Part shown: piece by piece, positions 8,578 to 31,892 of the stretch
Layout: each line of letters starts with the position of its first letter
Numbering within the stretch: position 1 is the first letter of the stretch
NCBI RefSeq assembly: GCF_037975245.1
Contig: NC_092564.1
Location: forward strand, 5,384,484 to 5,448,483
From: Apostichopus japonicus
Lineage: Eukaryota > Echinodermata > Holothuroidea > Aspidochirotida > Stichopodidae
DNA: 64,000 bases
Direction of reading: 5' to 3'
Made by a program: the position numbers and the translations under genes
The notes under the pieces: model-generated
What the model was told of the DNA's origin: nothing
The model's database searches: none
Seen by the model: only the letters and a program-made list of their open reading frames with translations

Positions 8578-9119
8578 ATATTCCTATAAAGATGAATTTT
8601 TTAATTCATGATTTCACCAAGTACAACCTGTAGCAACAGGAAATAAACCGACCTGGAAGTGTGTCAATATTTGCACTGCAAGGTTCAAATTATCACTATC
8701 CTGTAACATTGTGTACTTTAGTTTCCTTCATCCAGCCCAACTATTAAGTGCTTGTGTTCAATGGCCAGAATAAAAGGAAGTGTGCAGACTATGATTTCTA
8801 CACCTTTCTTAATTGTATCTACATCATTCCTATTAATACAAACGAGAGAATTTGTAATCAATTGAGGGAACACGTACTCAAGTAGACATAATAGGTTTCG
8901 AAAACTGCGCCATTATTAGCAAAAGGTTTTCTACACAGAAATTGCCACAATTTTCATCAATAGTGCTTTCAAAGTAAGATATATGTTTAAGAACACATGT
9001 AGCTAAGACATTGCAAAAGCAACATTTATCATCGAAATATGTTGAAAACTAAATCAATGAAATGCCAAGTTTTGACATATGAGTATCTTGAAATTACATA
9101 CTATCAAAAGTAGTTTGTG

Positions 9120-9151
9120 CAGTGGCGTTCTTTCGTCCGAGAACGCCACTG
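9120..9151. repeat. Perfect 12-bp inverted repeat (hairpin)
   Basis: CAGTGGCGTTCT, an 8-base spacer, then AGAACGCCACTG. It lies 100 bp right of the duplication breakpoint at 9020, in sequence not shared with the other copy's flank. Confidence 0.8.
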
Positions 9152-9301
9152 ATAGTTCTAGTGGAAGGTTTTGGATAACTATTTGCATATTCTGTCAAAT
9201 ACAGAAATATACTTCCGTACTGAGATATATTGTATAGGATGGACAATCAATCAATATCAATGTTAATTGCGATGAAAGCATGTTTAGGATTGTTCCTATT
9301 T

Positions 9302-9375
9302 TATCTCTTCTCCCTCTCCCTCTCCTTCCCTTTCTCCTAATTCTCTCTCCCCTTTCCATCTTCCCCCCCCCCCCA
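9302..9375. repeat. Polypyrimidine tract
   Basis: Almost pure C/T, with CTCCCT repeats and a poly-C run at 9363-9374. Similar C-rich tracts occur at about 9840-9870, 9940-9965, 10,080-10,095 and 10,635-10,660. Confidence 0.75.
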
Positions 9376-12300
9376 ACCCTTCTCCGGTCTGAAAGGAAAA
9401 ATATTCACCTGGGCATTGCAATATCTTCAGTGGATTCTCTTTGTTGACCGGGGTGTTGAAATCTGTGAATGAATTAGCAAAACGTTTTCTGAAGCGGATG
9501 AGTTAAGACACACAATGTTAAGTTATATAGTTTTCATTGTGAAACTATAACAAGAAGGAAACTCCTAAGAGATGTTTGAAATTTGCTTTAGCCGTGTGAT
9601 TTGTCTTTGGTTGGCTTCATCGTCTTTATAGGAGAGCCATTTATTTCGTGCTTAGCAGCAGTCTTGTGACGATTGCTTAGAATAAGTATCGACAAGTACC
9701 ATCTATAGCCCATTCTGTTATGAAAAAAACGACAACCTGTTGTAAAGCACAACTATATGCAATAAAGATTAAGCAACCTTCTCCCAATCCACTTCATATT
9801 CCCAATCTAAAATCCAGGCATCGATTCAGAGCACAAGTTCCCCCCCCCCTCTCCCCATTCACTCCTTCCTCTGCCTTCACCCCACCTCTTGTCCCATCTA
9901 GACACAAAACCTCGTTATCCGGACTCAGAACAATCCTTCCACCCCCCCCCCACCCCCACCTTCCCCTCTTTGTTCATGATATCTATCTGAACCGTAAAAA
10001 ATAATGTGAAAAGAAAATAGTATAATAACAAATGGCTTATAAAATAATATTATAACAAATAAAAGTTGATTATTCCGTGTGCCCCCCCCCCCCCCTTCCC
10101 CGAATATCTGCATTTCCTCCCCAGATGGTGTTGGAGCCCAATTCTGTACAATATTCTAAGCATCTTTTACTGAGTCATTTCTTCGGCACCATTCTTGCAC
10201 ACGTTCGGAAGTTCGCACTTGAGGTAATGTTTGTCCAATTTAAAATGCGACGTTTATAATGCTGTATCGGTTTGTAATTTTGAATGATTTTATATTTTTT
10301 ATATTGATATCAGCCTAATTGATTTATAAACTTACCTTATAGGATCAATTCGCCTCGCACCAACACATCTTAAAGCTAAGAGGGATCGAGTTGTTGAGCA
10401 CAAGGTAGCCATGATCTATTATCCGCGATTTGTTTCTGCCCATTCACATTTCTCGTAAAACTCCGACTAATGGGTATTAATATCGTATTGACAGAGATGA
10501 CTAACTGTTTGAATGAACTTTGTTCTTAGGGTCAATAGAAAGAACCGCATACACCAAGCAAGTTGATAGCTATTTGGTAGTTTATTACGTGTGTCCGTAT
10601 ATAACCAAGCTATAATTTGAATATTATTCGGTATCCCCCACCCCCTCCCCCACCCGTCCCCAATATAAATGATAAACGAAGACTCAAAAGAGTAGAGAAC
10701 GGCAGAGAAAGCTGCACTAAACTTAAAACTTGTATCGTTAAAATACAACATTGTGAATCGACTTTGCCACAGTCCGGCGAAGTTGAGTGCACAGGATTTC
10801 AAAGGTGTGTGGGAGACGGGGTGTTTGGGGACGGGAGGGGAGGTGGATCCAAATTCTAAACTCCCAATTAATGTAGATATGGGTATGAAACTTCATGGGA
10901 AGGCCATATGTGAATCAAATACTTTATGAAGGATGGGGTGGACCCGAGATTGTTGAAGCCAACTCCCATGTAGGGTTGCTTCATCAGGAATACCTTCCAG
11001 AAACCAAAAATAGACGTTTAGACGGCAAATGGTGCATAAATTAGGTCTATCATTAGATCTATACTGTTCTAATTAACACACACACACACACATATTTTTG
11101 TGTGAAGTTTCATAAAGCGGCGGTGCAGGGGTGCAGGATGATCTGCCAGTAAGGGGGAGGGGGTGCTGTGGCCCCCACACATTGAGTAAACTTAAGGAAC
11201 TGAAATAAAATGTTGGTATCAGATGCCGTATCAAAAATTACACAAACTGTTTACTCAATAATTTGCCAGTTGTGTATAGCTAAACGATATCACTGCATCT
11301 TGCTATTCAGAGACACGATTGGCCATGTTTAGATATGATCGTTTAGATATCAGTATTTCATATTGCTTACTTTCAATTTGAAATCTCATTATACTATAAA
11401 AGCCGATCAAAGTCCAGGTATATTCCTGACCACGCAGAACGTTATCATATAATGATAAATATAAACTTTACACAGGGGCAACCTTGACCCCTTGTCTCTT
11501 TATAATCCAAATGATATTTATGAATATGCAAAGAGTGTTCGAGCTGCCACTCATCTTACATTACAACACGGTGTTAAGGATTTACCCGAAGATATATTTT
11601 AATGTTTTGGAAACAATAGGTAATTTTGATTTTCTGGTAAAATAATAGGTGTAATTGTTTGCCATTACTCTTGTTAGTCCGGTTAATGCAGTCATTTGAT
11701 CTTGTTCAAGTTCTGCATCTCAGTATGCATTTCATAAAAAAATACATCTGAAGCGCTACCTTTCTCATTATTTTCTTCTTCAAACAACCGAACTGTTTGG
11801 TTCTTGTATTCACTTAAAGGCATTGACGACTCGCCCCAAACCTCATGCCGCCCTCCGAAAAAAGTTAACTTTCCGTCGCTTGCAAGTGAAGTTTTTTCTT
11901 GACGCTACAAAATGCAGACAGTAATGTAACGTGATACCGTGTTATCTTTTATCTGGACCTGAGATGTCCATCGCTGCAATGTACACTGTGTTGTGGGTAT
12001 TGACCGTAGCTGCATGTATTGACTGTACACTAGTGTCTAATTACCGACGGTAGCAAGCTGTGTGTATTTTCTGGGATCGATGGTGGTGTCTAACACTTCT
12101 GTTACACCTCATTCGAACTAGGTCAGATTACCGGCATGAGACGTTTCTTTGTGCGCGAGTCTTCACTCCCTTTACTTAGTTGGATCCACATGTAACGAGA
12201 TGGAACTCATCCAAACTTTGGTTTTGACTTTTGAAGCTATCGACTTCGCAAGGTTGACAGGCTTTGACCTCCCGTGACATTTGACCTATACGCAAAACAA

Positions 12301-14919
12301 CTGGGCTTTTCAACTAAGGGTAGACCGACACGCCAAGTATTGAATTTATCAACTTTGTTTGTAGAGTTATATCTACAAGAGGTTCAAACGTTGACCTCTA
12401 TCGACCTATACCGGATACAGTTTTCGTCTTTGGTGGATCCAGATTCCACCGTGTTCTTTTTTCAGTTCGTGTTTCACAATCATGACGTCATAAACATACA
12501 CACATATAGAGGTATCGATTCATTTACAAACTTGAATTGTCAGATTGGCATATTTATGAACTGTGTAATAGCATTTATCTTTTGAATTTTGGATACTGTC
12601 CACTTAAACAGTAAAAACAGGAAATAGAATCAAAAGAAAGAAAACACAATATTTATGTTACTATGTCACTAATGTTTAATGCAATACAAAATATAAGTTG
12701 AAAAAGGGAATGAAATTTGTAAAACATCAGGCAGTAAAAAGTCTGAAAGGTAAAATTATAACTTAGAAACATACACTATATCTTCAACACATTCAGTCAA
12801 GCATCTTTGGTGACTTTCACATGAAATATTTCCACAAGTACTAGTATTGTAACAAGGTGAATCGGTGACTCGAATTCAATTCATACATGCATGAAAGGCC
12901 TGGCGAGAGGGAGTGAGAAGGACACAGCCCTGGGCGCATGTCAACTAGGGAGGGGGGGGGGGGGGTTATGGGATAAAGAATAATTTATTCTCATTTCCAT
13001 AATATACAATTCACTCACCCCAACTGTATATGTATCTTATAACATACTTAACTTTAACAACTACAATCCACTAAGTCTTTACTTTGACTAACAATTTTGC
13101 CATCTGATTACCACAGACAGACAAATTGATAATAGTGACATAACCTTCAAACAGTCGCATTTTAATAAGAATCCATTCACGATTGTTCCTGTGGAAAATC
13201 GGCAGCTTTAAAATTGAATGTAAGTTTTTACAAAAATATCTCATTTGAACTCTCATCATGAATCGTGTTGAATGGTGTGGAATGGTGTTGACTCGACTTG
13301 TCCAGGTGCTTGACTTGCCTTGTTGTAGTAGTGAAATGACTTGGCTAGATGTGGAACTATTCCCAAGAGCTGACATTAATCACTTCCACCCTGATTCCTT
13401 CATGCAATTACAGATAGGGCTATAGGTTAATCTGCATATGAAGTACTGTTTCTGGAGGCATCAGGTGTCAGGTATGACATCAAAACTTAATGCAAAACTT
13501 AAAGCTAGCAACAAAACTTTCTTGTGCATTTGAGCGGAGACAATACATTGAATAAGAGGGTCCTGCTTCAGGTATGAAATATAAAAACCAAATCATTGAT
13601 ATAACATACAGAGCAGTCAATTCCGCTGGTTACAGGTAAGTACAGTCTTACCATATATACAGAAACTCACAAAAGACTTTGCACATGTTACAACTTGTGA
13701 CATACTTGTGTGATACCATTGAATTAACTCTTAGTGTTCGATAGCATTACAGTATCTCATTTGTAACCCTTCCGATGCAAATGGAACTGGATGGGGGGGG
13801 GGCCTTCACCTCCCTTTCAGTTTTCAAGAAAGTGGTCAGATGCTAAGGTAGACACTGGTCCGTGGGATGGGGGAATGGGTGCAGCAACTACACGCCTGCC
13901 TCTTAACTCTGAGAACACTCACTGAAAGGAGAAGGCTTGGTATATGCCAGTGTTCACCTAATGATCATCACATGGATCGGGATGTCACTGGTGTTCTGTT
14001 GCCTTGATAACCCTTGGGAAATACTAAACTCATATCAAACCTACTCTTCCTTTCCATGGGTATTCAAAATACCAAGCAAGGCATGTCATTTTGCCACCCC
14101 TGCCCCTTTTCCTGCTAACAGAATGGCCATTTAATGCCCCATCATAACGGTCATAATTCGAGGGGGTGGACACTCTTACCTTCCCTGACAGGGTATGTCA
14201 ATACACAAAGGCAGTAATAGCATCACTCAGATGATAAAATTAACACAAGCTTTTTTGTTCACAGAATATACCAAAACAAAAAGTTGCCGAAAGCCTCTGG
14301 CAGGTAAAACGTTTGTGCGATAATGTCAGTAGTTTGCCCTGCCCTTGTTGAAATGAAACCCTAATATAATATAAAATAAAATAATATTATGATTTTTAAA
14401 GTCATGGAATCTACACATTAAAAAAGTTCAAAAATCCACTGGCAGGAAAAATGATTTTTGCATAATCACCATGCTCTAAATAAAAAAGAAAGAAAAAAAA
14501 GGAAATATATGCATAGGCTAAAGTTTACCCTGTTACCATATACAATTGCATGCAGGACCAATTTAAAATGCTAATGTATTGATATGCAGGTTACAGATTT
14601 ACTCCTCAGTTATCATGCCAATCAGGTCACATTTTAAATTCTAATAAGTATCGTTACTAGATACACATTTATGCTGTTACTATAATTAAATGACGGTTAC
14701 ACAATTAAAAACATAATATCTAGATATGACGGTTACACATTTACTCCTCCATTATCACGCCATGTAGGTAACATTTTTTAGTCTTACAAGTATATGTATA
14801 AGCTACACATCTACTCCACTTTAATTCAATGACCTGCAAGTGACAAAGCCATTTCAGCTGCTAATATATAGATATGTAGGCTATGAGATTTTACTAAGTT
14901 GCTTGGAGATATTTACAGG
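9376..14919. other. Gene-poor interval between SSUH2 copies
   Basis: No exon of a known family seen on either strand. It holds poly-C tracts, a short CA repeat near 11,080 and poly-G runs near 12,952 and 13,794. A 103-codon plus-strand open frame at 12,274-12,585 resembles nothing I recognise. The upstream control region of copy B, if any, and the downstream end of copy A transcripts should lie here. Confidence 0.6.
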
Positions 14920-15890
14920 CTAAAAAGTTAAAAAGCTACTTCTACCACATAGATACTACAACTACTAGTAAAGAGTATTTTTATTTTTAAAGGATAGTGC
15001 AACCCCAGCAACACTGTTTTGGGTATTCAGGAAGCATAGATACTACTACTACTAGTAAACAGTATTTTTTTATAAAGGATAGTGCAACCCCAGCAACAAT
15101 GTTGTGGGTATTCAGTAAACTACTTCTATCACATATATACTACTACAACTAGTAAACAGTATTTTTATCTTCAAGGATAGTGCAACCCCAGCAACACTGT
15201 TGAAGGGATCCAGGAAGCTACTTCTACCACATAGATACTACTACTACTACTAGTAAATAGTATTTTTATTTGAAAGGATAGTGCAACCCCAGCAACACTG
15301 TTGTGGGTATTCAGTTAGCTACTTCTACCACATAGATACTACTAGTAAACAGTATTTTTATTTTAAAGGATAGTGCAACAACAGCAACACTGTTGTGGGT
15401 ATTCAGTTAGCTACTTCTACCACATAGATACTACTAGTAAACAGTATTTTTATTTTTAAAGGATAGTGCAACCCCAGCAACACTGTTGTGGGTATTCAGT
15501 TAGCTACTTCTACCACATAGATACTACTACTACTAGTAAACAGTATTTTTATTTGAAAGGATAGTGCAACCCCAGCAACACTGTTGTGGGTATTCAGTTA
15601 GCTACTTCTACCACATAGATACTACTAGTAAAGAGTATTTTTATTTTTAAAGGATAGTGCAACCCCAGCAACACTGTTGTGGGTATTCAGGAAGCTACTC
15701 CTACCACATAGATACTACTACTACTATAAAACAGTATTTTTATTTTTAAAGGATAGTGCAACCCCAGCAACACTGTTGTGGGTATTCAGGAAGCTACTTC
15801 TACCACTTAAATACTACTACTTCAAGTAAACAGTATTTTTATTTTAAAGGATAGTGCAACCCCAGCAACACTGTTGTGGGTATTCAGGAC
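14920..15890 (-). repeat. Tandem array made from the SSUH2-A stop-codon segment (10 units)
   Basis: Ten copies of a unit of roughly 85-106 bp, recognisable by GGATAGTGCAA near 14991, 15078, 15174, 15280, 15368, 15462, 15558, 15650, 15751 and 15850. The 15850 copy is the real end of the SSUH2-A coding sequence. On the minus strand most units read the codons for EYPQQCCWGCTIL, a TAA and an AATAAA, followed by a spacer with a TAGTAGTATC triplet-like stretch. One unit (near 15368) has CAACAACAG in place of CAACCCCAG. One unit (near 15174) has an altered codon stretch. Confidence 0.93.
15838..15843 (-). promoter_or_regulatory. AATAAA poly(A) signal abutting the SSUH2-A stop codon
   Basis: On the minus strand the bases directly after TAA read AATAAA. 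A signal this close would give an almost absent 3'UTR. The same stop-plus-AATAAA arrangement recurs in the array units downstream, so which one is used cannot be told from sequence. Confidence 0.5.
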
Positions 15891-15990
15891 AGTGTACTTC
15901 ATGTTCATTGCCATAGACCCAGAAACGACCTCCTTCTTGCTTGTACATATACTTCACCTCCGTTATTGGTACGGATCGTAAAATCTGCCT
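15844..15990 (-). CDS. SSUH2: SSUH2 copy A exon 12 (C terminus and stop)
   Basis: 147 nt after a TATGTACAG acceptor. Encodes RQILRSVPITEVKYMYKQ, then FWVYG, and ends with CCWGCTIL and TAA at 15846-15844. The last 17 or so codons are repeated in the downstream tandem array. CTIL fits CaaX with X = Leu, a geranylgeranylation-type signal (inference). Confidence 0.9.
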   Translation of the reverse strand, partial: RQILRSVPITEVKYMYKQEGGRFWVYGNEHEVHCPEYPQQCCWGCTIL

Positions 15991-18900
15991 CTGTACATAG
16001 AATGAAAAATAGATTCAAGGAGTTTGAAACCATCTTACAAAGTAAAGCCTCATATATCTGTTGCAAACTTGAACACTCAGGATGTATTCTCAGAATTAAT
16101 TCCTCACCACACTTGATGCATAACATGTTACGATGGAACCCCCACCCCACTCCCTCACAATATCTACGGAAAACATGGAACCTGGAACATGGAAAACATG
16201 GAGCCCCCCCCCACACTTTACAATATCTATTGAAAACATGAACATGCAGGATTTATAAATGGTTTAGTAATAGGTTTGGTATGTAACATAATACAAAAGA
16301 AACCATTTCACAAAGTACAAACTCATAATCTATGGGAAACTTGAATACTCAGGATTTAAAAACTCTTTACCAGGTTGATAAGAAACATATTTAAAAAGAA
16401 GACCCACCCCCCCTCTCCTTAACAGGTTTGTTTTAATCCATGGAAACCAAATTAGAAAGTACACACTCAATTGCAAACTTGAACACCAGATTTGAGACAT
16501 AACATAAAGTAGCCCTCCTCCCCTGACCCCCTCCCCCCCAAAAAAATATATATAATATATATATATATATATATTAAATATATATATCACATATAATGGT
16601 GGCCAGCTGTTATCGCGCTGTTGCCATGGCAACCGTAAACACACACGCCTGAAACCGAGATAGCCCGTGTTGATCAGTTCAGTTGCCTGATGATCAGTAT
16701 GCGAGCCTTACCCGTGAAACTCCAAGTAGCAGTATGATGGTATTTTAGTTACCAAGATTTGATTGATATGTTTCGTATCATGTTTCAAAAGAAACCATTT
16801 TACAAAGTACACATCAAAATAACTATGGACAGATTAACACAGGCATCATTCCTAAGCTGCATGTCAGTCTTGGCCACTCATATGTTTAAAAAAGGTTTGG
16901 GACATAAACAAGTTAAGAATTGTAACTGAAATAAATTTCTTTTCATATGTATTTAGGCCTGTGATGAAATATTGATTTATCAAATACGTTAAATGTTATA
17001 TTTGTAAAAACTTTTAGGGTGAAAGAATAAAGTTCCAGTAATGACACTAAGAAACAGTATATTTTTAATACAGACATGTTTAGGACCATGGTTAGTTTAA
17101 AATTGGCACTAAACTTGCTAAATATACTAAATTGCCAAACTTCAAACCTAAGTTTCTGCTATGTTATTCCTTTGTTTTCACAACCTTTGTTTCAGGGACA
17201 CTGCACACAGGTTCTTGGCCTAAGGCGATTTCTTGAAATATTTTATTGTCTTCATTGAAAAGAGGAACATCACATTATTCAAATTATATATGTGGGCTTG
17301 TAATTACGGGTTTACTTATTCAGAGCTAAAATAAGAAATTTTGACAAGCGCAACACTCTACACGTCATAATTTGCACATATTTAATGAGATTTATTAAAA
17401 CTTCAAATGTGTATATCTTGGAAAAAAAAGAGCTTGTCAAAAAAATGTCAACAGATTTTGAATGCGACTATCACACACTACAAATGTACTGAATATGGGG
17501 CGGCAATTTGGCCAGGTCTCCGTAGAACTTTAAGTAAACGGTCTTACCTGTTGTAATAGCTTAGACTCAGGCCAAGCATTCCTATGTCTTTCCACAATCC
17601 TGAAAGAATTCTCATTTATCTCAGGAACTTCATACTGAGAAATCGGCCACACCTGGAGAAGAAAAAAGAATATATAAACAGACGACTGGACTTAAAAAAT
17701 ATGTTTGAACAAATATTTGATGCATATCAAATCATTGCAGTTTTCATGGCAACCTAGTGATGTTCAGACTAGACAAATATATGGCTAGATGTTATCAGTT
17801 ACAGTTGCACTTGCAGTAATCACAGTAAATTAGCATATATACGTACAATGTTAGGGTTACTCCTCTAGAACCAGTCTGACCAACTGTAGTTCTAAAAATT
17901 ATAAAATAAATTCCAATTTTAAATTTTGACTAGTACAAGATTTGAACCAGTGTTGTCTGGGTATGCAAGCCCTGAAGTTGATTTATGTGAGCAAAAATCA
18001 AGTCCCGAGTTTTTGGCCATCTGCATATATTTATTTCTCGGCATGAGGACGGATGGATGAAGGATGGGGTGCCAGTCAGCTAGTGTCACCCCAAGGTCAC
18101 CCGGTTGAAACCCCATTCTAGCCAGCATTACTTTGCTTTGTTTCAAGTTTTTTTTCTTTTTTCTTAGTCAGTTTTCCGTTGTTGTAAAGTAGATTCTTCC
18201 TTCTGCCTTTAAATAAAGAGGTAAATCTATGAAACTTTCCTTTATATCTAACTTATTTTCTCTTTCAGTATATACAAAGAGCAGAAGAACTGAAAGTCTC
18301 CACTTACATACGGAAGCGTTTGTTCAAAGACTGATTTCCCGGAGACGTCACGAATCAGTTCGTCTGGTAGATCTGAAGGTTCATGTATAAAGTCCTCCAC
18401 ATTATTAATGCTGGAAAAAAATCAATACAAAGTGAAAACTTTTCTTTATGCAATGCCTTTTAACAACACACAAACATAAAACAAGCACCTCTGTTATACC
18501 AACTTACACGTATACACTTAACCAGCATCGACATCTTCCAATTAATATTATTTAAAAAAAGCATCCGGATATTAGACACTGCAATTTACAACCGAAAACT
18601 CCATAATGTGCAAGCCATTCATCTAAAAGATGATAATCAATTTTTTTATTCACATATTCATGAAGGACATCATACTTTAGAGAAAATCAATGACCTTAAT
18701 AAAACAAACACATTTTAAATTTTTAAGGGGGAAACAAAAACACAAAAAAGAAAACAAATATTTTGCAGAAAACTTCATCCCATTGGCAAAAGGCATTCCA
18801 AGTATGTCCTTAAAGGTAACTGAATCATTGAGAAGTTCTAAACCCAATTACGAGAGACTTTAACCATATTATCTCCACCTGTCAAACAGAGATAAATTAT

Positions 18901-21900
18901 AGTGAGAAATTGAGAAAGTGAGAATTTCATCTAACTATGAAAAGTCAAGAGTCTCTTGTTCATTCCACTGACCCTCTAATTGATCAATTCAGATGACAGA
19001 TGTCTGAGATCACTGTGGACACCCAAATGCTGGTACTATGGTACCCGGATCATCCAAAATATCTATCTTATGCACTATATGATACATGAAGATTTAACCT
19101 AATATAACTATGAATAACCCTAGCCCTACTAAAAGTAAGGCTGCTACTGATGATGCAAGCCCTGCTTACAACAGAGCACAAGAGCAGAAACCGATCTAGC
19201 TTGGTCTCTGAACCAAAGTGAAATTCATACCCATCGGCCTGTTTGACAAACTCGGTCAATTATCCATGTTCGACCAATGAGGATTAAAATAGCTAAAAAC
19301 CGGGCGAACACAAAAAGAAAGGCCTAATTCCTTCTGTGATAGTCACATGCTATGACTTTCGGGAATTCCCCAAAACAATCACCGCGGGATTCATCCACAT
19401 AAAGTGACGTCTGATGGTGGGACCCCCTACCCCAAACTTCAACAATATATATATAATAAGAGATAAGTTATAATTAGTTATTTCATTCCTGGTACATGGG
19501 TATCTTCTAAAATGGCCATATACCTTTTGTAGAGGTCAACTGTTAACATGAAAATCTACATATCAACAAGGGTTCTTTGGACAGAGTTAACAACTTCAAT
19601 TTTTATTTGCTATTATAAAGTGCCAAAAGCCTTACAGCTTTTGGGGAGGAAGACTACTGCAATAAAAAGCTATGAATATAAACTGTAATCTGAAATTGAG
19701 CAAGTTAAACATCTCTCATGCTTGATGTGTGTTGCAATAATATTTACAGCAAACATAGTTCCACTCCCTCCTACCCTACCCCCCCCCCCTGCCACTCTTA
19801 TGTTATTGTAGATCTATGTTACACAGTATCTTCTACTTTCATATAAATGAGTTAAAGAATGACAACAATCTAGAATGAAAGGGACCAAAAAGATCAACAT
19901 TTAAATGAACAATTTGGTGTTATTAACACCACTTTACTACTTACTATTGCACCTTAAGTTGTATGTACCATCGCAGCTTGGCGAAACCCTCGCATATGGG
20001 ACAAGTGATCCTCCCATCGCCTCCACATCTGCCACATCTGCAAATCAAAGCAAACACTCCCTCATTGATTTAACCGGGGGGACATTAGGCTTAGTTAGAA
20101 GTTCCCTTGGATTTTCATTGAAATGGTAAAGCAACCACAGGAATTTTCAAAACTTGGAGAGGCATTTTCTTCCAAAGACGATAGGTACAGAAGCAACAGC
20201 CAAACAGGAATACTAACATAAATGCAATAGTCATAGACCAAGTGAGTAATAGCGCAACACATGCAATGCATCGGTAATGACAAATATGAGAACAACGGAT
20301 CAAATCATACAGTAACGCTGCTGTTAGAAGTTCACGGAAATGGAGAGGTGTTAATCGGGGATGTAGAAAAGAAATCACGGAAATCTGTGAATTCGCAGAA
20401 AAAGGTCATGCCTGATAAATGCATACATAGATGCATATGTAATGCAAACATAAATGCATACATAAATGCATAAGTAAATGCATACATAGATGCATATGTA
20501 AATGCAAACATAAATGCATACATCAATGCATATGTACATGCATACATAGATGCATACATAGATGCATATATAAATGCATACATAAATGCATACATAGATG
20601 CATATATAAATGCATACATAAATGCATACATAGATGCATATATAGATGCATACATAGATGCATATATAAATGCATACATAAATGCATACATAGATGCATA
20701 CATAAATGCATACATAGATGCATACATAGATGCATATATAAATGCATACATAAATGCATACTTGGATGCATATATAAATGCATACATAGATGCATACATA
20801 GATGCATACATAGATGCATATATAGATGCATACATAAATGCATACATAGATGCATACATAAATGCATACATAGATGCATACATAGATGCATACATAGATT
20901 CATACATACATGTATAGATAGATGCATATATAAATGCATACATAGATGCATACATAAATGTATAAATAGATGCATACATAAATGCATACTATTTAGTTTG
21001 ATATTGAAGATTTGATTGAGATTAATCTGGGGGCACCCCAGCTTCAAATTTACCTAGCTGTCATCTAATTTATCAGTCATATAATCGATGCCTAATTAAA
21101 TAAAAGCTTAATTTAAAGTGTACACAAACCCTCAAAATGGGAATTGATGATTGTTTCAATTTTTTTAATATTTTTTGACCACTTAGAAAACAATCAACTT
21201 ACATCAGTGATTCATTCAAAGTTATTCAACAACTGCCAAAAAATGGATGATAAAAGCTAAGGAAAAAAAGGGAAATTTGATAATTGAATAGGAAAAAGTT
21301 AAGATGACCAATCCAAACAAGAAACTTGAACCTATGATTGCTTCAAAAGTTTTAGTCTACCACTCGTGTTTAAAAAAAAATTATTTTTATAATTTTTGCA
21401 AAAGCTGGAATCAATACTTGCTTCAAAAAGATTACTAGTATAACCTCAGGGAGAAATAGAAAGTTGAATCTATACCTATACAAGTTTTTAGTCCACCACT
21501 CAGAAAGATGTTGGTAACTATTGCCATAATTGCAAGATTTTAGCAGTTGTAAATTGAAGTTGTGTAAAAGTAAGTTGGCCTGACGTTTCGATCCAAGCAG
21601 GATCTTCTTCAAAGGCTAAATGACAAGTAACAGTAACAGAAGGGACAGAAACACACACAGAAAACAGACAGGTTAATGAGCATGGTGAACACAAAGAAAT
21701 GGATGTAAGGGTATTAGTAGACAAGGGATGGAGAGAAGAAAGAAAGAAAAAAAAATTGAAGTTACCAGTAGAGGAGTTCACTCACCTTTTCTTGCCGCTA
21801 CCGTGACAGGAAAAGCAGGTTCTTCTTTCCGTCTTTCCTTGGGAATGATGGGTTCTATGGCCGCTTCCATGACAAGATGAACAACGAACCTGGTTCAACA

Positions 21901-24900
21901 AAAGCAAACAAGCAACTAATGAGAAGAAAGAGACCCTTGAGTGACACTTTTCAAAGTTGCTCTCACAGCTATATTTCTGTAACGTTTCTGGAAACAATAG
22001 CTACTGAACCATTTAAAGGACCCCGGATATGTTGAATAACTTTAACACCACCACGTTCTTCTTTGTACCAGATTGTCTCAGGAAATTGCTTCTCCACTCT
22101 GCCATTTCCAATGCCCTGTCGGTCTCCCCCACCCTCCCCTGCCCCCCCACCCAAAAAAAACCCAAGAAGACACTTACAAACACTTTTAATATCAGATAAT
22201 CAGAACTTTCAACGTCTGTAACTTTTCGTCACTATTCAAAGTGAAACGTGACATGTCAATCTAATTGACCTGCATTTTCACAGGATATTAGTGTTAGACA
22301 AATAGAATCCAAAGAACACACAGGCAACCCTGACCACAAAGGATTGTCCTCTAAACGTAAAGGAGGAATACAGTATGAGAATCATACAACTTACAGGGAT
22401 GTGCCCACGCTGGGCGGCGCTGGGCAGCCCCGCCCAGCACTAAAAATTACCGCCCAGCACTGTCTTCAAAATCGTGAATCCAGCCCAGCACTATTTTCAT
22501 CTAAAATCCTGACATTCCAAACAATATATTCAACATAAATTGGGCCTAGCCTATGCCAAAATCATAGACTAATAATGCATTAGTAACGCATACGAGAAAC
22601 ATTACTAACGGCTCTCAATTGGTCCCTTGTAAAATCTCTTTGAAACAAACTAAAAACTTTACCAGGTACGTAATAAATTTCACTAAAAAAAATATTAAAA
22701 AGTGTAAATTGTTAGCAAAACTAGTGTATGTGCTTAAAAAGCTACTAAAGTGACAGCATTTGGCATCTGAGCACCTTCAAAAATCGAAAAATTTCTCAAA
22801 GGGGAAGGGGACACCCCCTTACACCCCTCCCCCAGGATGGCAATCAGTATACCCGGCACTCAGGAAATCCTGGGCACATCCCTGAACTTAGGAAACCTCT
22901 TCAAGATATAGCTTACCCTTCCTCGACCGTGACAACGAGGACATCGTACAAAGCCACATCCAGTACAGTTATGGCAAACCTATAATACGAGGAGAAAAAA
23001 TAAATAAATATTCAACGATAAAATGAGACTTGTAAGAAAACTAAATACATGTATACACCATACTTAATCCTTCATTCGTTTTCTTTCCTGCAATCAATTT
23101 AAATGCTTGTATTCTTAGTCAAGAAAAGACATTGCTAGTAAAATTGTATTTAGGTAGGCACTGTTACATAGGTAATGTATATTTACCACTAGTATGGGTA
23201 TTGAACATAATATTGAACATTAGATTGAACATAAGATTGAAATAAGCCATTTACAAATATTTCTTATGTGACACTACTGTATAAGGATGACCATAATGCA
23301 ACGCAGTATATTTGCTGTATACCTCACTCTCAGACCATTCCTTGTACACTCTACAATACATCTTGAGATGGAAGGTAAGAATAATTATACAACTACATGG
23401 GTATATCCTTTAAGATGCGCATTAAACCATTTATGTTACGGTTGGGCACCAAATGGAATATTGCCGGTCGCAGTGAAACTTTGTACCCAATTCACCGGCC
23501 ACAACAATTAAGGGCTTTACCTTCCATACACTTGAATGTTACATAATACAGTCAAATGTACAGAATTCTGAGATCGTTAAAACAGTACAGACGACACAAC
23601 TTAGCACGGATATGACAGAACCCTCTGTTCAAATGGTGGAGAGTCACACTGGATCTGCCGTTTAATCGATCCTAAAATACATCCTTTCCAAACAGAGATC
23701 AAAAAGCTGAAAGAAGGAGGTTACGAGTATTTACCTTGATGTTACTGGTATGAGGGATCTCTATCAACTTGTCATGGGTGTCAAAAAGTTTGAAAGGGGA
23801 ACAGGCGATATCCCAGACAGCTGGAGCAAGCCCGCAATCAGGGCCATCTATAGGACCACCTCTGTAGGGTAGATGTTCCCAGCTAGTACTCCTGGTCTCG
23901 GTGAAACTCTCCAGTTGATACTGTGGAAAGAGATTTCAATGCCTAGTATTGTTTTGGTTTTTTTTTTTCATTTTTCGATTGAAGTATACATTACTAGAAC
24001 ATGATTAGAACATAAGTCACTGGCAAAATGCTACCAATGTCGTACCATGTAATATTCATACAAAATTGGATATAGCTGTATCTCGCTGAAAGATCTATGT
24101 GGTTAAACAACTGCTTGGCTGCTATTGACACCAGACTTAGAAATCACAGAGCCTCACACAGAAACAATTATTGTCTGCAACAATTGAAATGCAATAACTA
24201 AATATTCCTTTCTTTCTTGTTTTATATTTTCCTCATTTAATCATTTCTGGATTAATTCTGTTTAAGTTTGTTGAATTAATTTTCCAATAACTGTGGTGGC
24301 ATATGATACCAAAGTTCCATTTTGGAAATGAGTTTGATTCCCAAAGAACCCTGATGACAAGTATGTCTATATTTCAACATGCACCATATGCTGACAAAAA
24401 TGCAACAAAAATGGTTTTCTTTCAGTTGAAACTGTGAATTGTGGCAAGTTGATCAAATGGAGGAAAAAACGAGTGTTGATAAAACTAAACCAAATGATGA
24501 TATTATCTCACATATTTAATCTGAAAAAAACTGGTGGAAATATGAATTTTGAATTTGACTGCCCTTGAGTCAACAAACAGACATCTGCTTGCGTCAATAA
24601 GAACTTGATGTGATAGACCGAAATGCTCAGCGATGAATTTAAGTTCTGTTTTTTTGTTTCTGCGTGTTTTGTTTTTTGCTTTTCTTTATTTTTCATTGTT
24701 TGGTCTAGGCACCTTTAGTCCACATCGATTGACACTGCACATCAAGTAAGAATTGTTTTACATTTATTCATCACAACAATTATTTTTGCTGTTACTGAAA
24801 TGCGTTTTGCAATGTTTCGAGATCTAAATTACTGAACCTCTTAAGTCTTAACATGAGCTTAATGATGGTTCAGTGTCAGCACTGTTAACATTCTATCTTG

Positions 24901-27900
24901 AAAGTTATGAAAACCAAAGAGAAAGTAAACAGTTTCAGATCCTTATTGCATTGATGACATCACAGATTTACAACATCACAGCTCCCAGGCATGTCTTGTA
25001 AACTAGGATATCTTCCAAAATGGAACAACATTTGCCTTAATAGCAGGTGTATGGGTGAGTTGTTCTTCTTTACAAAGATCTCTGTCATATTAGCTGCAAG
25101 ATGAATGGTTGGGTTTGTATACCCTTCAATTTTCAATCCTCTCTAACATCATGTCAGCGAGGCCGATCACCGTAAACGTAGAGTTAGGTAGGATACAAAA
25201 ATATACTATGTACAACACTAGGAACCGTGCGTAACATATATTTAATCAAAGTACTATGTACAACACTTCCTTGTAACACCTTGTGGCCAACCCAACAAGC
25301 CTTCTCCACCAGCAAGCAAGGGCTCGCTGACAGCGAATATGCATGAGTGAACATAAAGATTAACTATTGTTACAAAAATAAAAGGGCATCATTCCTATAT
25401 TGTCTTAGCATTTCGGATATACACATGAGGGATAAAGGTTAAGGGTGAGAGCTAACTATACAATTGAATACAGTCGTTTGTTATTTCATTAAAAATATAG
25501 TGGGCCTTCAGTTTTTATTATAAGATGTTACATCGCTACATTTTCATTCCATGGACTGCTTATTTTCTGACACTTACATGAAGTCCGCCGCTTGGGTCCA
25601 TTTTTTCGAAAACCATTCTCTCCGCAGCACCGGTGCCATAGCAACATTGCTTGTCAGCGAAAGCACAGATTGCGTCTCGTACCTGCTGCTCATTCATAGT
25701 TCCGACACTAATAGGGGAATAAAAAATATTTTAAAATTCACGTTTATTGACGCTGCTTATTAAAATTTTAATAAAACAGCTTTCAGTTTTAGCCACTAAG
25801 CATATTAAACTTTTAAAAAAAAATGTTCAGTTTTATTCACTAAGATAATTAAACAAAAAAAAATTGTAGGAAAGTAAATTTCTCTTTGTTCTAGGTGAAT
25901 TCCGACAAATTAATTGCTTAAGAGGCAATGTGTTAATTGCATCGAAAGCTGAAGACCATAAAATTCCATTCAACCCTTCTTTTTCTAGTTTCCATATATA
26001 TTATACTCCTTCGAAAGACTTAAAATCACACAGAAAGATTCCACTGCGTAAACAGATATGGAAATGACTTCCTGGGCTTGTTTATAAGCTTGAAAGTCAC
26101 ACATCAACAATACTAATTTACAAGTTCAGAAGACTAGGCTGCTAATTTAGGATTCTTGTCAAAGTGGAGAAATGTATAGCAGCACACTGAAACCAAGCAA
26201 TCTTCAATCCCATTTATATCTATTTTCCAGACTTTTGCCATCCTTACCCTGTAAATGTTTGCATGGGTCTGCTAGCTTCGTCTGGTGGTTGGTAGGCTGG
26301 TGGCGGTAATGGAGCTCCTGTTTTTGTGAAAAAGACATCCAACAATCACAGCTGTTTACTATAGAGGGTGAATTGCTCACACACTAATAAGGCGCTGTTA
26401 CAATGTACCTAATGATCAGCAGAAGGTATTCTGTGAAACAGTCATGCCACATGGAATGATGGTATCACAACATGCCGTATGGAATGATGGTGTCACAACA
26501 TGCCACATGGAATGATGGTGTCACAACATGCCACATGGAATGATGGTGTCACAACATGCCACATGGAATGATGGTGTCACAACATGCCATTACAAATAAG
26601 GTGACACTTAGGTATTCTGTGAAATAGTCATGCTACATGGAATGATGGTGTCACAACATGCCATTGCAATTAAGGTGACTCTTAGGTATTCTGTGAAATA
26701 GTCATGCTACATGGAATGATGGTGTCACAACATGCCATTGCAATTAAGGTGACTCTTAGGTATTCTGTGAAATAGTCATGCTACATGGAATGATGGTGTC
26801 ACAACATGCCATTGCAATTAAGGTGACTCTTAGATATTCTGTGAAACAGTCATGCTACAACATGCCATTGCAATTAAGGTGACTCTTAGATATTCTGTGA
26901 AACAGTCATGCTACAACATGCCATTGCAATTAAGGTGATTCTTAGGTATGCTGTGTTAACAGTCATGCTACATGGAATGATGGTGTCACAACATGCCATT
27001 GCAATTAAGGTGACTCTTAGATACTCTGTGAAACAGTCATGCCACATGGAATGATCATGGTGTCACAACATGCCATTGCCAATAAGGTGACTCTTAGGTA
27101 TTCTGTGTTAACAGTCATGCTACATGGAATGATGGTGTCACAGCACGCCACTACAATTAAGGTGACACTTAACCAAATTTTTGTCACAATAGTGTGGGCA
27201 AGAAGAGAGTAAGGTGTCTCATATTTTTGTCACAACATCCAGGGACACATAATTACTGACCTTATCCACCTCTCCCCCCACCCCACCCCACCCCCACAAT
27301 GTTGATATCAATGGGTAGTACCTACACTGTCCACTGAAAGGAAAGGGTTGACATTTTACAGACCTCTCAGTGATTTGGACCTGGTACTTCTATGTTTCAA
27401 GGGTCATGGTCAAATGCCTAAGTTTGGAATATGTGTTTTAGATCAAAATGTAACTATAAGTCTGGTTATTCTTCACTAAATACAAACATGATGCTTTTCA
27501 TGTGAATTATAGGCTTTGATAATTATTTAACGAATTTGGTAACCTCTATGTGCAAGCCAAGAATAAATATTTACGTTTGCAGTCGTAAACAGGGCCGATG
27601 GGGGGCCCAGAAATGATGACATCCTCTTCAGTCAATGACAATGTTTATGTGTGGAGTAGCGATGTATTAAACAATACACTTACACCTTTACCAATTCAAT
27701 AATGTAAAATGACACAGCGATATCAAGGTTGTGGGGAGACAGGTAAGCTAGGACAAAGTAAATATCAAGCAACGTCATTCTTCAGACACAACCTGTAAAA
27801 TTAAATCCAACAACTATATGAAGCACTTGCTACTGTATAACGGTTGAAAATAAAAACATAATATTATACTTCAGTTGCACGTGGACAAGAATACTTGGCT

Positions 27901-30900
27901 GTGGATGTACTGTGTAAACATCAATATAATTACACAGAAGATGTGTTTATTTATATGAGCGAGAGGCAATCAAAATTTCCAAAATGTTCATAAAATCTGT
28001 GTTTAGCCTTTTGGAAAAGATATTCAAGTGAGAAGTGAGACACAATGGGTCTATCATTAACGTGTGTGCCACAAACAGAATGAACCATTACTGTTGTTGT
28101 TATTATTATTTAATACAGAATGTAAGTTCTGTAGTGTCAACGAAACAGAGTTTGTGGTTTCAAGCTATATTATTGCCTTCATTGTTAGCTACCCATGATA
28201 TGAATACACACCAACCGACCTAACTAACATCTACCTTACCAGCAGCGGCGCCTGATTGTTCGTAACCCGGTGGAGCCTCAAAGGAATTAATGTCCGGGGG
28301 TGGAAGGTTGCTTGGAGGAGCCTCATCGTCATCATTATCCTCTGGGTCAGTATCGGGTATATCATCGCCCTGGTAGCTGGGACCAGCGTCGGATGCCTGA
28401 TTCGGCTGCCAGGCTGGAGAAATCAGGAATAAGCAACTTAACATGATTATTTGCTTAATCGTATTCAAGAACAACACTGTCCACAGATAAAAGGGCTTGT
28501 GGTTTTCCTATTTTGGTGATATAATAGTCCCTTAGCTTTGATAGTGTTGCTTTTTATTGTAGATGTCCAACATTATGTTCGGATACTTAACTTATGTGGT
28601 CACATAACATTCTGTCAATTATCTATCAAAAAATAACTTTGAATTGAAAAATAAGCTCAAAAATAACTTAAAACATGGTTTGATACCCTAACTGTACCAT
28701 TCCATCCGCCAAAGACGTTTTAACTAGGTTAGGCCCTGACAAGAATCTGTCATTCTGTTAGATTTTTCCAGTTTTCCTAAAGTTTATTATGAAAATGATT
28801 TACAACACCCTAGACCTAGACTCTTGACCCCACAGCAGCATCCCTGCTGACAAACCCCTGGTCTCCACCCTGATACGTTGTTTTCCAAATGTAATGCAAC
28901 ATACAGCTAACTACACAACCCTTCAGAATATTAAATTGCAAGATATTAAACTTTTCAAATCTTTAAAGATTTATGACATATCAGAATATCAAACATGGAA
29001 ATAGTGACACAAACTGAACCCAAGATATGATATAAATGATAAAAAATAACAGACCTAATATTTCTACTTTTATATATACTTAATGTAATACTTGACTGTT
29101 TCTAGCATGTATTGATATTACAGTGATGACCTCATACAATAGACCTAGTGCAGAGAGATTCACAACATGCAGATGTGTGTGATATTTATGAATCATTGAT
29201 TTCCTTATGTACAGAGTGTTCGATGGGTACTTACGAGTAAATGCCTGTTGATCCGCTGCCCCGTTTGGTTGAGGGGGCATCGCCATTGCCGCTTGTCCTA
29301 GAAAAAAGACAACAAAGTTGTCATATATTAAATGTTACAAGTCCAGCAGCTTTGTTTATAAAGTGACATTAATAAACCGGTCAACACAAGCATTGTAACA
29401 AGTCATGCAATGAGTCACTATATACTGTAGATTTGTAACAAGTCATGTATTGAGTCACTATATAGATTTCACATGTCAATTGACTTGAATGTAGAGTATG
29501 AAGCATCCTTTTGCCTATAGGGATACTATGTTGTACATTGTTACTTCAGTCAACGGCTGGAATATTTTATTTCTTCAAAATTTCAAAACTGAACCAGCTC
29601 CTTTACTGTTTACATAATGATATGCGAGAATGTACTATTAAAAGTCACCGTTTCTCAGTTGGACTATGATAATAATAATGATAATCATAATAATGATGAT
29701 AATTATGATGATAATGATAATTAATGATAAAAATAATGAATTTATAGGGCGCTAACAACAACTCCAGTAGAGCAACCATCTTAAGCGTTTCAAAAACACA
29801 AACTAAATTTCTAGTAAAAAATACAAAAAGGCCTGACTAAAATCAATTTTCTCCAATTTGGATTTGAAGCTAGCAACAGAAGTGTCATTTCTTATAGACA
29901 AAGGAAGTAAATTCCTATGAGCTGAGCCAAATTTACAGAAAGAACAATCCCCATAGGACTGTAGGAATGACAAGGATATTTGTAATATAATAAGGAAGAT
30001 GTTTGGGAAGTTGGCAGGAAGGGGAAGTTCATTGATATTTACATGACTGAAACATAGACAAAAGCAATTAGCGCTCTGATATTCAACTGGTACAGTCTTG
30101 CGTTTCCTTGTCAGAACATACAGGAAATACTCAAGTGTTCAAATTTTGCTGGGAATTGTGAAGGCTCTCAATTTTGTCTATATTGGTGTCATATTGTATG
30201 TTCCGGAAGACGTCAATATAATGAAGGAAAAGTTATTCTTGATTCTTGAACGTATATTTCACGTAACGTAAATAACCATAAACAATGACGTGTAGGGTAT
30301 ATACGTAAGGAGTAGCAGCAAGCATGGAGAGTGATTATAGAGTAGCGTGCATGAGTATTTATACTTACATACTTAATGAGATAACATGGGATGTAATTGG
30401 CTAACCAGCATCTTATCTGATTGGCCTATAATATAACAGTGTGATTGGTTATATGACAATTAGACTTATGACGTCACATCACAATTGGAATACACTGTTT
30501 TTTTTTTTGTACACAAAGTTGCTATGTACACATCTTTGCACCAGCACCTTACAATCTGACAATATAACATAGATTTGTTTTGTGAATGTTGTACTGGATA
30601 AATAATTCCCTGATAAAAGCTTGACCTACTGATGGAGGTATATAATTCAAAGCAATGTTTCTTGAAAAAAAGTCATCATTCAAGCAGTGAATTTGAAGCA
30701 AAAGTAGATATTAATTGTCTATGAATTATGTTACTGTTGAGAAGATAACAATGTTGGTATGTTCTATCTTGTTAGCTTTTTTTATTCCATTTCATGTTTC
30801 GTTCCCTAACTTTGACTACTTAAGGTATTCAGTCAGCTTCTGAAGGCATACATAGTATATACATAGTACATACATAGTACGTACATAGTACAGACAATAT

Positions 30901-31892
30901 CAATAATGAGTATGCTAGATGACTGTAGACAAAACACAACAAAATGTTCCAGTGTACTTTTTGTTACTTCTGAAAAGATGGCAGAACTTTTTTAACTAAA
31001 ATTTCTAACAACACCATTACTGAGAATTTTGAAATGAAAGAGAAGAAACCACTTTTCTTTTTACAATGTTCAATCTTACAAAGAGAAGACATCAGTCATG
31101 TGATTTATTTCAGTTCATTTATTTTACATCATAATAGGAAGACATCTTAATCTTATAAACATTTAAGTGATTCAATATGATACAAAGAAAAGACGGAGAA
31201 TCCAAGAAAGTGGAAGCCTGTCAAAAGCAGATCAACCAATGAGAAATCAATAATGGTTTTAAAAAAAATTGGCAACTGGGAAAACAAAAATACAAGCAGA
31301 AAGCAAAATATTTAATTCTTAACAAATGGGGTTTTCTTGTTTTATTTGACAGTGGGAAACAAACCCTGGATTGTTCTTTAAGTACAAAACATAAGTACAT
31401 AACATTAGAACCAAAGATAAGTACATTTAACATAAAGTACAAAACATAAGGATTTCCGATATTTTCATCAACATTATTATTGAATTACACTTACAACACT
31501 GACCTTTGAGTTTAGTTTTGCTAGTATGCCTCTGAATAATTTAATGAGTAAACAGCTCAAAGAACCATTACTTGGAGAGCAAAGACTGTCTCTTTTTTAT
31601 TATGGGCCATTTACAACATTCACAATTCTCTGTCAGGTTCCTATAGCTGTGATTATTCGATGAGCATACAAGAGAATATATTTGTATTTAACCAAACCTT
31701 GGTAGTAAGGAGGAGGTGCAGAGGGTTGTGCTGCCATCTGCCCATAGCCTGGTTGCTGGTCTAATACAAACCCTATCTGCACTGGTGCAGCACCCTGCTG
31801 TGCAGGAGGGTAGGAAGACTGTGGTTGACTCATTTGGTAAGGACACAGAGACCCTCGGATGACGATTTAGCAGAAACAGTATTAAAACAAAC
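15844..31892 (-). CDS. SSUH2: SSUH2-like gene, copy A (complete, 12 coding exons, 457 aa)
   Basis: Spliced by eye from twelve exons whose phases all agree: 31698-31833, 29235-29297, 28240-28413, 26248-26317, 25578-25707, 23735-23920, 22917-22979, 21786-21889, 19945-20037, 18308-18410, 17548-17652 and 15844-15990 (1,374 nt with stop). Residues 1-148 are proline-rich with three PPxY motifs (PPPY 40-43, PPGY 114-117, PPAY 130-133) and an acidic run near 87-97. Residues 149-253 hold the CCYG and LESFTETRS blocks typical of SSUH2. Residues 255-324 carry six CxxC half-sites in the style of the DnaJ cysteine-rich zinc domain. Residues 331-440 match the SSUH2 C-terminal region (PITEVKY, FWVYG). The protein ends CTIL, a possible CAAX prenylation box, preceded by CC at 450-451. 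SSUH2 is poorly characterised; the human gene has been linked to tooth development. The PPxY motifs suggest WW-domain partners (inference). The span includes a 59-nt 5'UTR part of exon 1. Confidence 0.92.
16020..16835. repeat. Degenerate repeats in SSUH2-A intron 11
   Basis: Four diverged copies of a block reading GAAACCAT, ACAAAGTA, then AAACTTGAAnACTCAGGAT, near 16,025, 16,300, 16,445 and 16,790. C-rich tracts lie between them. Confidence 0.6.
16543..16588. repeat. TA microsatellite
   Basis: Alternating T/A with minor interruptions, in SSUH2-A intron 11. Confidence 0.85.
17548..17652 (-). CDS. SSUH2: SSUH2 copy A exon 11
   Basis: 105 nt, phase 0 to 0, TTCTCCAG acceptor and GTAAGA donor, residues 375-409. 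Encodes VWPISQYEVPEINE and ends KLLQQ, as in vertebrate SSUH2. Confidence 0.9.
17915..18165. repeat. Possible tRNA-derived SINE fragments in SSUH2-A intron 10
   Basis: The minus strand at about 17,935-17,950 contains GGTTCAAATC and the plus strand at about 18,098-18,110 contains CGGTTGAAACCCC. Both resemble the RNA polymerase III B box. No matching A box was confirmed. Confidence 0.3.
18308..18410 (-). CDS. SSUH2: SSUH2 copy A exon 10
   Basis: 103 nt, TTTTCCAG acceptor and GTAAGT donor, residues 340-374. Encodes INNVEDFIHEPSDLPDE and VSGKSVF, matching the family's VSG segment. Confidence 0.9.
18411..19944. other. SSUH2: SSUH2-A intron 9
   Basis: AT-rich intron; a C-rich run near 19,780. No repeat or gene recognised. 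Confidence 0.6.
19945..20037 (-). CDS. SSUH2: SSUH2 copy A exon 9 (zinc half-sites 5-6)
   Basis: 93 nt, ATTTGCAG acceptor, residues 309-339 plus two bases. Encodes CGRCGGDG and CPICEGFA, then RWYIQLKVQ. The donor is GTAAGT at 19944; an earlier GTGCAA donor would break the frame into exon 10. Confidence 0.9.
20415..20988. repeat. 12-bp tandem repeat, about 570 bp, in SSUH2-A intron 8
   Basis: Near-perfect repeats of ATGCATACATAG/A with occasional ATGCATATATAA variants. The period of 12 keeps two minus-strand frames open (MYASMYAF and CMHLCMHL patterns); these are by-products, not genes. Confidence 0.95.
20989..21785. other. SSUH2: Rest of SSUH2-A intron 8
   Basis: AT-rich; two similar short blocks near 21,350 and 21,480 (TTTTAGTC CACCACTC type). 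No gene recognised. Confidence 0.5.
21786..21889 (-). CDS. SSUH2: SSUH2 copy A exon 8 (zinc half-sites 3-4)
   Basis: 104 nt, GAACCAG acceptor and GTGAGT donor, residues 275-308 plus two bases. Encodes CSSCHGSG and CFSCHGSG. Confidence 0.92.
22394..22884. mobile_element. Non-autonomous DNA transposon, 491 bp, 14-bp TIRs
   Basis: Perfect terminal inverted repeats CAGGGATGTGCCCA and TGGGCACATCCCTG, flanked by the direct repeat AACTTA (22388-22393, 22885-22890). Lies in SSUH2-A intron 7. The GCCCAGCACT motif is repeated internally. No transposase seen. The CAGGG ends suggest a hAT-like family, though a 6-bp target duplication is shorter than the usual 8. Confidence 0.88.
22917..22979 (-). CDS. 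SSUH2: SSUH2 copy A exon 7 (zinc half-sites 1-2)
   Basis: 63 nt, phase 0 to 0, ATTATAG acceptor and GTAAGC donor, residues 254-274. Encodes CHNCTGCG and CPRCHGRG, two CxxC half-sites. Copy B's version would lie just left of the window. Confidence 0.92.
22980..23734. other. SSUH2: SSUH2-A intron 6
   Basis: Alignable with positions 1-674 in copy B. A plus-strand 74-75 codon frame is present in both copies but only because the intron was duplicated. Confidence 0.6.
23735..23920 (-). CDS. SSUH2: SSUH2 copy A exon 6
   Basis: 186 nt (62 codons, phase 0 to 0), TTTCCACAG acceptor and GTAAAT donor, residues 192-253. Encodes YQLESFTETRSTSWEHLPY, the most recognisable SSUH2 signature. Confidence 0.94.
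25150..25537. mobile_element. 388-bp insertion in copy A intron 5, absent from copy B
   Basis: Flanked by ACAT (25146-25149, 25538-25541). Removing one ACAT and the insert restores the copy B sequence CTAACATTTTCATTC near 2070. On the minus strand an offset reading has TGTAG to GACA ends, which would resemble a solo LTR, but that reading does not restore the site cleanly. Type unresolved. Confidence 0.7.
25578..25707 (-). CDS. SSUH2: SSUH2 copy A exon 5
   Basis: 130 nt, CCTATTAG acceptor and GTAAGT donor, residues 148-191, leaves phase 0. Encodes VRDAICAFADKQCCYG, a block diagnostic of SSUH2 proteins. Confidence 0.92.
26248..26317 (-). CDS. SSUH2: SSUH2 copy A exon 4
   Basis: 70 nt, AAAAACAG acceptor and GTAAGG donor, residues 125-147. 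Proline-rich, with PPPAY and YQPPDEAS. Confidence 0.85.
26430..27165. repeat. Minisatellite in intron 3 of SSUH2 copy A
   Basis: Same composite unit as at 2994-3440 (CATGGAATGATGGTGTCACA plus GCAATTAAGGTGACTC blocks), with more copies. Some units lack the first half. Confidence 0.88.
28240..28413 (-). CDS. SSUH2: SSUH2 copy A exon 3
   Basis: 174 nt from a TTTCTCCAG acceptor to a GTAAGG donor, residues 67-124. Encodes the acidic DTDPEDNDDDE run and the PPGY motif. The donor was chosen over a GTAGAT six bases on because only it keeps the frame into exon 4. Confidence 0.9.
28414..29234. other. SSUH2: SSUH2-A intron 2
   Basis: Alignable with copy B intron 2 (4608-5430); small indels only. Nothing else seen. 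Confidence 0.6.
29235..29297 (-). CDS. SSUH2: SSUH2 copy A exon 2
   Basis: 63 nt between a TTTTCTAG acceptor and a GTAAGT donor, residues 46-66, enters phase 1 and leaves phase 1. Encodes MAMPPQPNGAAD. Its counterpart in copy B is intact, which supports the exon. Confidence 0.88.
29635..30110. mobile_element. Old dispersed repeat in SSUH2-A intron 1
   Basis: Contains TTATAGGGCGCTAACAAC near 29,740 and AGTAAATTCCTATGAGCTGA near 29,907, a layout I associate with short dispersed repeats of marine invertebrates. Copy B keeps only the later part (about 5,668-5,930), so the element predates the duplication and copy B lost its front. A GAT/AAT microsatellite (29,668-29,736) sits at its start. Confidence 0.45.
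30187..30483. mobile_element. 297-bp solo-LTR-like insertion in copy A intron 1
   Basis: Starts TGTCATATTG and ends CATCACA (TG...CA ends), flanked by ATTGG on both sides (30182-30186, 30484-30488). Copy B has the empty site TATATTGGAATACAC near 5,980. A 5-bp target duplication and TG/CA ends fit a solo LTR; orientation is unknown. Confidence 0.75.
31698..31892 (-). CDS. SSUH2: SSUH2 copy A exon 1 (5'UTR part plus codons 1-45)
   Basis: ATG at 31833-31831 begins MSQPQSSYPP. The coding part ends at 31698 before a GTTTGG donor, phase 1. A TTTCTTTCAG acceptor just above 31892 implies at least one upstream non-coding exon, so 31834-31892 is 5'UTR. PPPYY lies at residues 40-44. Confidence 0.85.

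Follow-up and report, generated by a model that had tools for sequence, protein, structure and literature searches.

A tandem array behind gene X3 of Apostichopus japonicus whose unit holds the gene's last codons, stop codon and polyadenylation signal

Gene X3 lies on the minus strand of the window (the whole 64-kb stretch of Apostichopus japonicus DNA analysed here) and is followed by a tandem array, the first unit of which is the end of the gene itself. With a probability of roughly 85%, we regard this array as a minisatellite that derived from the gene 3' end by duplication, grew by unequal exchange or slippage, was in place before the locus was triplicated and consists of copies in neutral decay. 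The seed is unusual and the mechanism that of an ordinary minisatellite; functional readings are not needed, though an exchange between gene and array left its trace.

Gene X3 and the units of its array

Eight exons, E2 to E9, were joined between window positions 25706 and 15844 into a single open frame of 309 residues (Table 1); the splice sites were taken from a reading of the sequence and the 5' edge of E2 and the join to E1 are provisional. The name SSUH2-like comes from the first-pass annotation and is kept here provisionally, consistent with features of the family. In the SSUH2 family, a DnaJ-type region rich in cysteine (CxxCxGxG) precedes a conserved C-terminal part; the CxxCxGxG exons of X3 are E4 to E6. 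Pfam DnaJ_CXXCXGXG scored 21.2 bits with E5 alone and 12.4 bits with the joined protein, both below the cut-off of 32.7. The match to the BSD2 cysteine-rich domain was weak (E 0.01, 16.5 bits, under a cut-off of 27), and a PDB search retrieved BSD2 chains at E 1.7e-4. The C-terminus, CCWGCTIL, is presumably a CAAX-like, lipidation-type motif. The stop codon TAA occupies positions 15846-15844 and is directly abutted by AATAAA.

Tandem repeats were reported by TRF at 14934-15887 (10.0 copies, score 1253), a second row with a period of 290 bp scoring 1485. Because of these large scores and of matching arrays at two sibling genes, a chance origin is not a serious option. The array is composed of ten units of 85-101 bp (92-99 bp in eight of them) spanning 14935-15888 on the minus strand, in agreement with the head-to-tail units of about 10-100 bp that define minisatellites. 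The repeat starts at the 14th-last codon of the gene. The ten-copy array described by the first-pass annotation as built from the end of the last exon was thus recovered, except that unit 1 is the gene and only nine copies are extra. Its statement that most units are intact goes too far: AATAAA was present in 8/10 units (not in units 8 and 9), the peptide was intact in 6/10 (units 1-5 and 7) and TAA was found in 6/10 (units 1-3, 5, 6 and 10). All three occurred together in 4/10 (units 1, 2, 3 and 5).

Table 1. Positions in the window of the X3 exons, of the array units and of the triplication copy containing them
Feature	Position	Strand	Characteristics
Third triplication copy	9015..33096	.	holds X3 and its array
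Open frame containing exon E1	28223..28507	-	
Exon E2	25578..25706	-	5' edge provisional
Exon E3	23735..23920	-	
Exon E4	22917..22979	-	CxxCxGxG type
Exon E5	21786..21889	-	CxxCxGxG type
Exon E6	19945..20037	-	CxxCxGxG type
Exon E7	18308..18410	-	
Exon E8	17548..17652	-	
Exon E9	15844..15990	-	last coding exon; ends ...EYPQQCCWGCTIL; AG acceptor; frame open to E2-E8
Unit 1	15791..15888	-	true C-terminal codons, stop, AATAAA (15843-15838), spacer
Unit 2	15692..15790	-	peptide, TAA and AATAAA all intact; tail type recurs in X1 unit 1
Unit 3	15599..15691	-	peptide, TAA and AATAAA all intact
Unit 4	15501..15598	-	peptide intact; TAA to TCA; AATAAA kept
Unit 5	15408..15500	-	peptide, TAA and AATAAA all intact
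Unit 6	15316..15407	-	peptide CCWGC to CCCCC; TAA and AATAAA kept
Unit 7	15215..15315	-	peptide intact; TAA to TCA; AATAAA kept
Unit 8	15117..15214	-	peptide EYP to GSL; without TAA and AATAAA
Unit 9	15032..15116	-	85 bp, tail deletion; peptide Q to H; without TAA and AATAAA
Unit 10	14935..15031	-	outermost unit of the array; peptide Q to K; TAA and AATAAA kept

Other interpretations of the repeat were considered. A continuous extended reading frame was rejected because unit length is a multiple of three in only 3/10 units and in-frame stops occur in 9/10. Unit 1, the sole unit folded, gave -22.5 kcal/mol (z -1.24 versus shuffles), which is unremarkable for a structured RNA. The sequence CAACAG, located just ahead of TGT TGC and in the frame of E8, is a candidate cryptic splice acceptor; by eye, the tract preceding it displays no pyrimidine richness.

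Two further features of X3 were recorded. Exon E5 displayed 84-86% identity to its X1 and X2 counterparts over 99 aligned bases, as against 94.6-100% for the other seven tested exons, with many amino-acid changes within the CxxCxGxG region and more diverged flanking DNA as well; this pattern suggests mosaic conversion between triplication copies around this exon. Intron 5 contains a 12-bp array (ATAGATGCATAC, positions 20415-20989) of 48 copies, the counterparts of which in X1 and X2 comprise 19 and 18.5 copies.

Sibling arrays and the border between gene and array

X3 is the third gene of a head-to-tail tandem triplication with a period of 22-24 kb and a local divergence of 1-8%, the copy borders being located near C4:5349419, 5371448, 5393498 and 5417579. 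Window positions 1-9020 belong to the 5' part of copy X2, whose gene end lies left of the window. The same array was found at both sibling gene ends, with six units at X1 and 11 at X2, against ten at X3; triplication copy 2 (X2) is presumably the "copy B" of the first-pass annotation. A fourth gene at C4:5303146 displayed a last exon with 74% amino-acid identity to E9 of X3, and two C20 paralogs reached 44%; no array was detected in the 3-4 kb around each of these three gene ends. A dispersed satellite was rejected, since DNA matches, in a search that skips common words, occurred at the three sibling genes only (four matches, three places). The 28 protein matches listed corresponded to real last exons (6), array units (19) and weak places elsewhere (3).

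Beside the arrays, two differences between the triplication copies were noted. The splice acceptor of E7 in X2, left of the window, reads CTG in place of the CAG of X1 and X3, and X2 may be impaired or spliced at another E7 acceptor. Upstream of E2, all three copies contain a compound minisatellite with 28- and 74-bp periods (28/74 bp; positions 2984-3446 and 26443-27171), which differs in length among them.

Unit order is partly shared among the arrays. The alignment of X3 with X2 had a cost of 34 compared with a shuffle mean of 49, and none of 2000 shuffles of X2 was as good; for X3 and X1 the cost was 34 against 45 (2/2000 as good), while the X2-X1 alignment was not significant (52 against 54, 309/2000 as good). 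The nearest relative of the 27 units was located in another array for 22, in their own array for one, and was tied for four. Since 22/27 units are nearest to a unit of another array, the arrays lack homogenisation, with no sign of it being ongoing. The same count and the partly shared order make an origin in the X1-X3 lineage before the triplication the simplest reading. Tandem arrays are generally error-prone in assembly, but a collapsed or mis-joined repeat is barely credible for three arrays of 6, 10 and 11 units, with many distinguishable units in a partly shared order, embedded in triplicated DNA of 1-8% local divergence.

Traces of growth were also visible within the arrays. Judged by eye on the unit alignment, X2 units 7-9 duplicate the types of X2 units 4-6 as a three-unit block, X2 unit 10 is a mosaic of types 6, 7 and 8, and X2 unit 11 is a hybrid joining a unit-9 front to a unit-10 tail. 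At X1, unit 1 is a hybrid as well: it occupies the place of unit 1 and displays a unit-2 tail, with two differences to unit 2 of X3 and eight to the closest unit within the X1 array. Variant units, and arrays that lengthen or shorten through unequal exchange or slippage, are the second hallmark of minisatellites and are represented here by arrays of 6, 11 and 10 units, by the hybrids and by the duplicated block, the size differences being those between paralogous loci of one assembly and not between alleles. The suggestion of simple slippage in the first-pass annotation, to which unequal exchange should be added, is supported by the partly shared sibling order, the duplicated block and the hybrid units.

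Unit 1 of X1 is at the same time the end of a gene, and since it carries the tail of X3 unit 2, gene and array exchange. At the sequence level, the gene/array border is shown to have moved at least once, by recombination, and this is visible at X1. Such an exchange is also what would be expected if the array were a donor bank for gene conversion, keeping or renewing the C-terminal motif CCWGCTIL, a template role already raised by the first-pass annotation. That proposal keeps the X1 gene end in its favour and loses the ongoing homogenisation that it would call for. In addition, the X3 units would be a poor template, with a damaged peptide in 4/10 and TAA missing in 4/10, and the fourth gene keeps CCWGCTIL without any array, so that we consider a donor bank highly improbable. 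A gene end buffered by its own array has a somewhat better, if still low, likelihood: because the unit bundles C-terminal motif, stop codon and polyadenylation signal, recombination could keep swapping an array unit into the gene end harmlessly, in which case the terminus would turn over and the protein would not. The X1 gene end with its unit-2 tail would then be a captured instance of this process.

Divergence of codons and polyadenylation signals

According to the first-pass annotation, the coding part is nearly identical among units and the spacer varies. Nucleotide diversity in the X3 array amounted to 0.039 for the codons (column 1 left out), 0.088 for the stop/poly(A) part, 0.061 for the TAG tract and 0.091 for the tail; indels affected 26 columns of the X3 alignment, none of them within the codons. 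The roughly twofold lower codon diversity and the absence of codon indels thus speak for this description. Against it, the share of variable columns did not differ significantly between codons and other parts (8/41 versus 17/60 in the X3 array, Fisher p 0.36; 12/41 versus 20/60 for all 27 units, p 0.83), and a column permutation for lower codon diversity in the X3 array, with the TAG tract left out, was borderline (one-sided p 0.042). Many of the indels affected the A-run and the TAG microsatellite, tracts that are indel-prone for reasons of their own; one larger event is the tail deletion of unit 9.

Rates were compared in nine pairs hand-chosen from tail types, which used 18 of the 27 units; units 1-3 of X1, 7-11 of X2 and 2 of X3 were omitted because they were hybrids or local duplicates or lacked a partner. 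All nine pairs were recovered by the subsequent order alignment, which proposed seven others (four involving X3 and three linking X2 to X1). Changes were found at 9/378 codon positions and 7/477 positions elsewhere (Fisher p 0.45). This is the uniform divergence along the unit that the first-pass annotation, together with a single transcript end, had named as making a function beyond tandem duplication unnecessary. Split by array, the six X2-X3 pairs displayed 0/252 in codons versus 3/323 in the rest, and the X1-X3 pairs 9/126 versus 4/154. Inclusion of the four further X3 pairs gave 14/546 versus 8/687 (p 0.08) and that of all seven 19/672 versus 10/843 (p 0.02); in both of these counts, which reuse units, the codons had changed more than the rest.

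Codons 2-14 of the non-first units displayed eight nonsynonymous and four synonymous distinct changes, which is near neutral (expected nonsynonymous share 0.76-0.82 for the extra units; binomial test against 0.75, p 0.51) in a small sample of 12 where shared variants were counted as single events. The real last exons E9 differed by 0 nonsynonymous and 1-3 synonymous substitutions in the three sibling pairs. Because of this contrast, the gene end looks constrained and the extra copies do not. Selection on the codons of the extra units is unsupported by the paired-unit and substitution counts, against which stands the borderline diversity value (p 0.042). The codons of the units may nevertheless be under weak constraint, since diversity is about twofold lower in codons and no codon change separates the X2-X3 pairs.

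The first-pass annotation had further considered a bank of poly(A) signals. With an AATAAA and a GU-rich stretch (GTGG) in most units, a read-through RNA polymerase would be cut and released near-certainly, or several nearby ends might be used. In favour of such a bank, AATAAA occurred in 24/27 units (8/10 in X3, 11/11 in X2, 5/6 in X1), neighbouring hexamers within arrays were spaced by 92-102 nt in 18/21 cases, GTGG was found in 22/27 units (8/10, 10/11 and 4/6, respectively), and the first AATAAA begins 0-1 nt past the stop in all three array-bearing genes. The six hexamer columns also showed lower variability than the remainder of their segment (0.038 versus 0.085 over 27 units) and were invariant in X2. 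Yet, their variability was close to that of the codons (0.038 versus 0.039, 27 units), for which no constraint was apparent, and was higher in X1 (0.125); over the 27 units, base changes affected 2/6 hexamer columns and gaps two more. Moreover, unit 1 already holds a complete signal, and the array-less fourth gene manages without AATAAA in the 1600 nt past its stop, ATTAAA occurring only from 943 on. Altogether, a termination bank appears quite unlikely. The C20 paralogs displayed AATAAA or ATTAAA 13-14 nt past the stop.

Proposed origin and related repeats

The segment that was duplicated head to tail begins at the 14th-last codon, takes in the stop and AATAAA and extends to about 50 bp downstream. 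Judging by eye from the little homology at the junction, the founding duplication was probably an end-joining or template-switch event. Further units would have been added by in-register unequal exchange or replication slippage, as the hybrids and the duplicated three-unit block suggest. This growth would have preceded the 22-24 kb triplication, which then spread the array to three genes, a sequence of events consistent with the shared unit order. Since the triplication, the nine extra units appear to have decayed without detectable coding constraint, unit 1 staying intact. Because the unit carries codons together with stop and poly(A) signal, the gene can retain a functional end when a unit beside it is gained or lost in register, and the array would thereby be tolerable to the gene.

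X3 can be compared with known types of repeats. Coding minisatellites are tandem repeats inside a reading frame; the X3 unit likewise contains codons, but its array forms no extended frame. Some satellite and repeat families derive from gene fragments, and at X3 a gene piece similarly became a tandem repeat; in contrast to these families, the X1-X3 arrays were found at the parent genes only, comprise at most 11 units and keep the parent end as their first unit. Minisatellites or VNTRs also occur next to gene 3' ends, an example being the human 3' APOB VNTR, placed 75 bp past the second polyadenylation signal (PMC1939985). As in that case, short units are repeated in tandem right after a gene end at X3; here, the unit includes the last codons of the gene with its stop and poly(A) signal, and the gene itself forms unit 1. 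Among the literature matches listed (titles and abstract openings), no array with such a unit was described, which leaves its absence from print unproven; passages of PMC2686159 and PMC2235864 deal with other topics.

X3 is a clear case of a minisatellite that started from a functional gene end, and the three sibling arrays allow its growth and loss, and its exchange with the gene, to be followed unit by unit. It also illustrates that coding-looking repeats can remain recognisable in the absence of detectable selection. Should gene ends turn over via arrays of this kind, stop codons and poly(A) sites would be easier to replace than is commonly assumed.

Further repeats were present in the window. 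Positions 50493-50951 contain a 19-bp array of 24 copies with a higher-order period of 95 bp, and positions 57678-57826 contain 8.3 copies (98% matches) of the 18-bp unit TAGTTGTAACATACAACT, which is nearly an inverted repeat.
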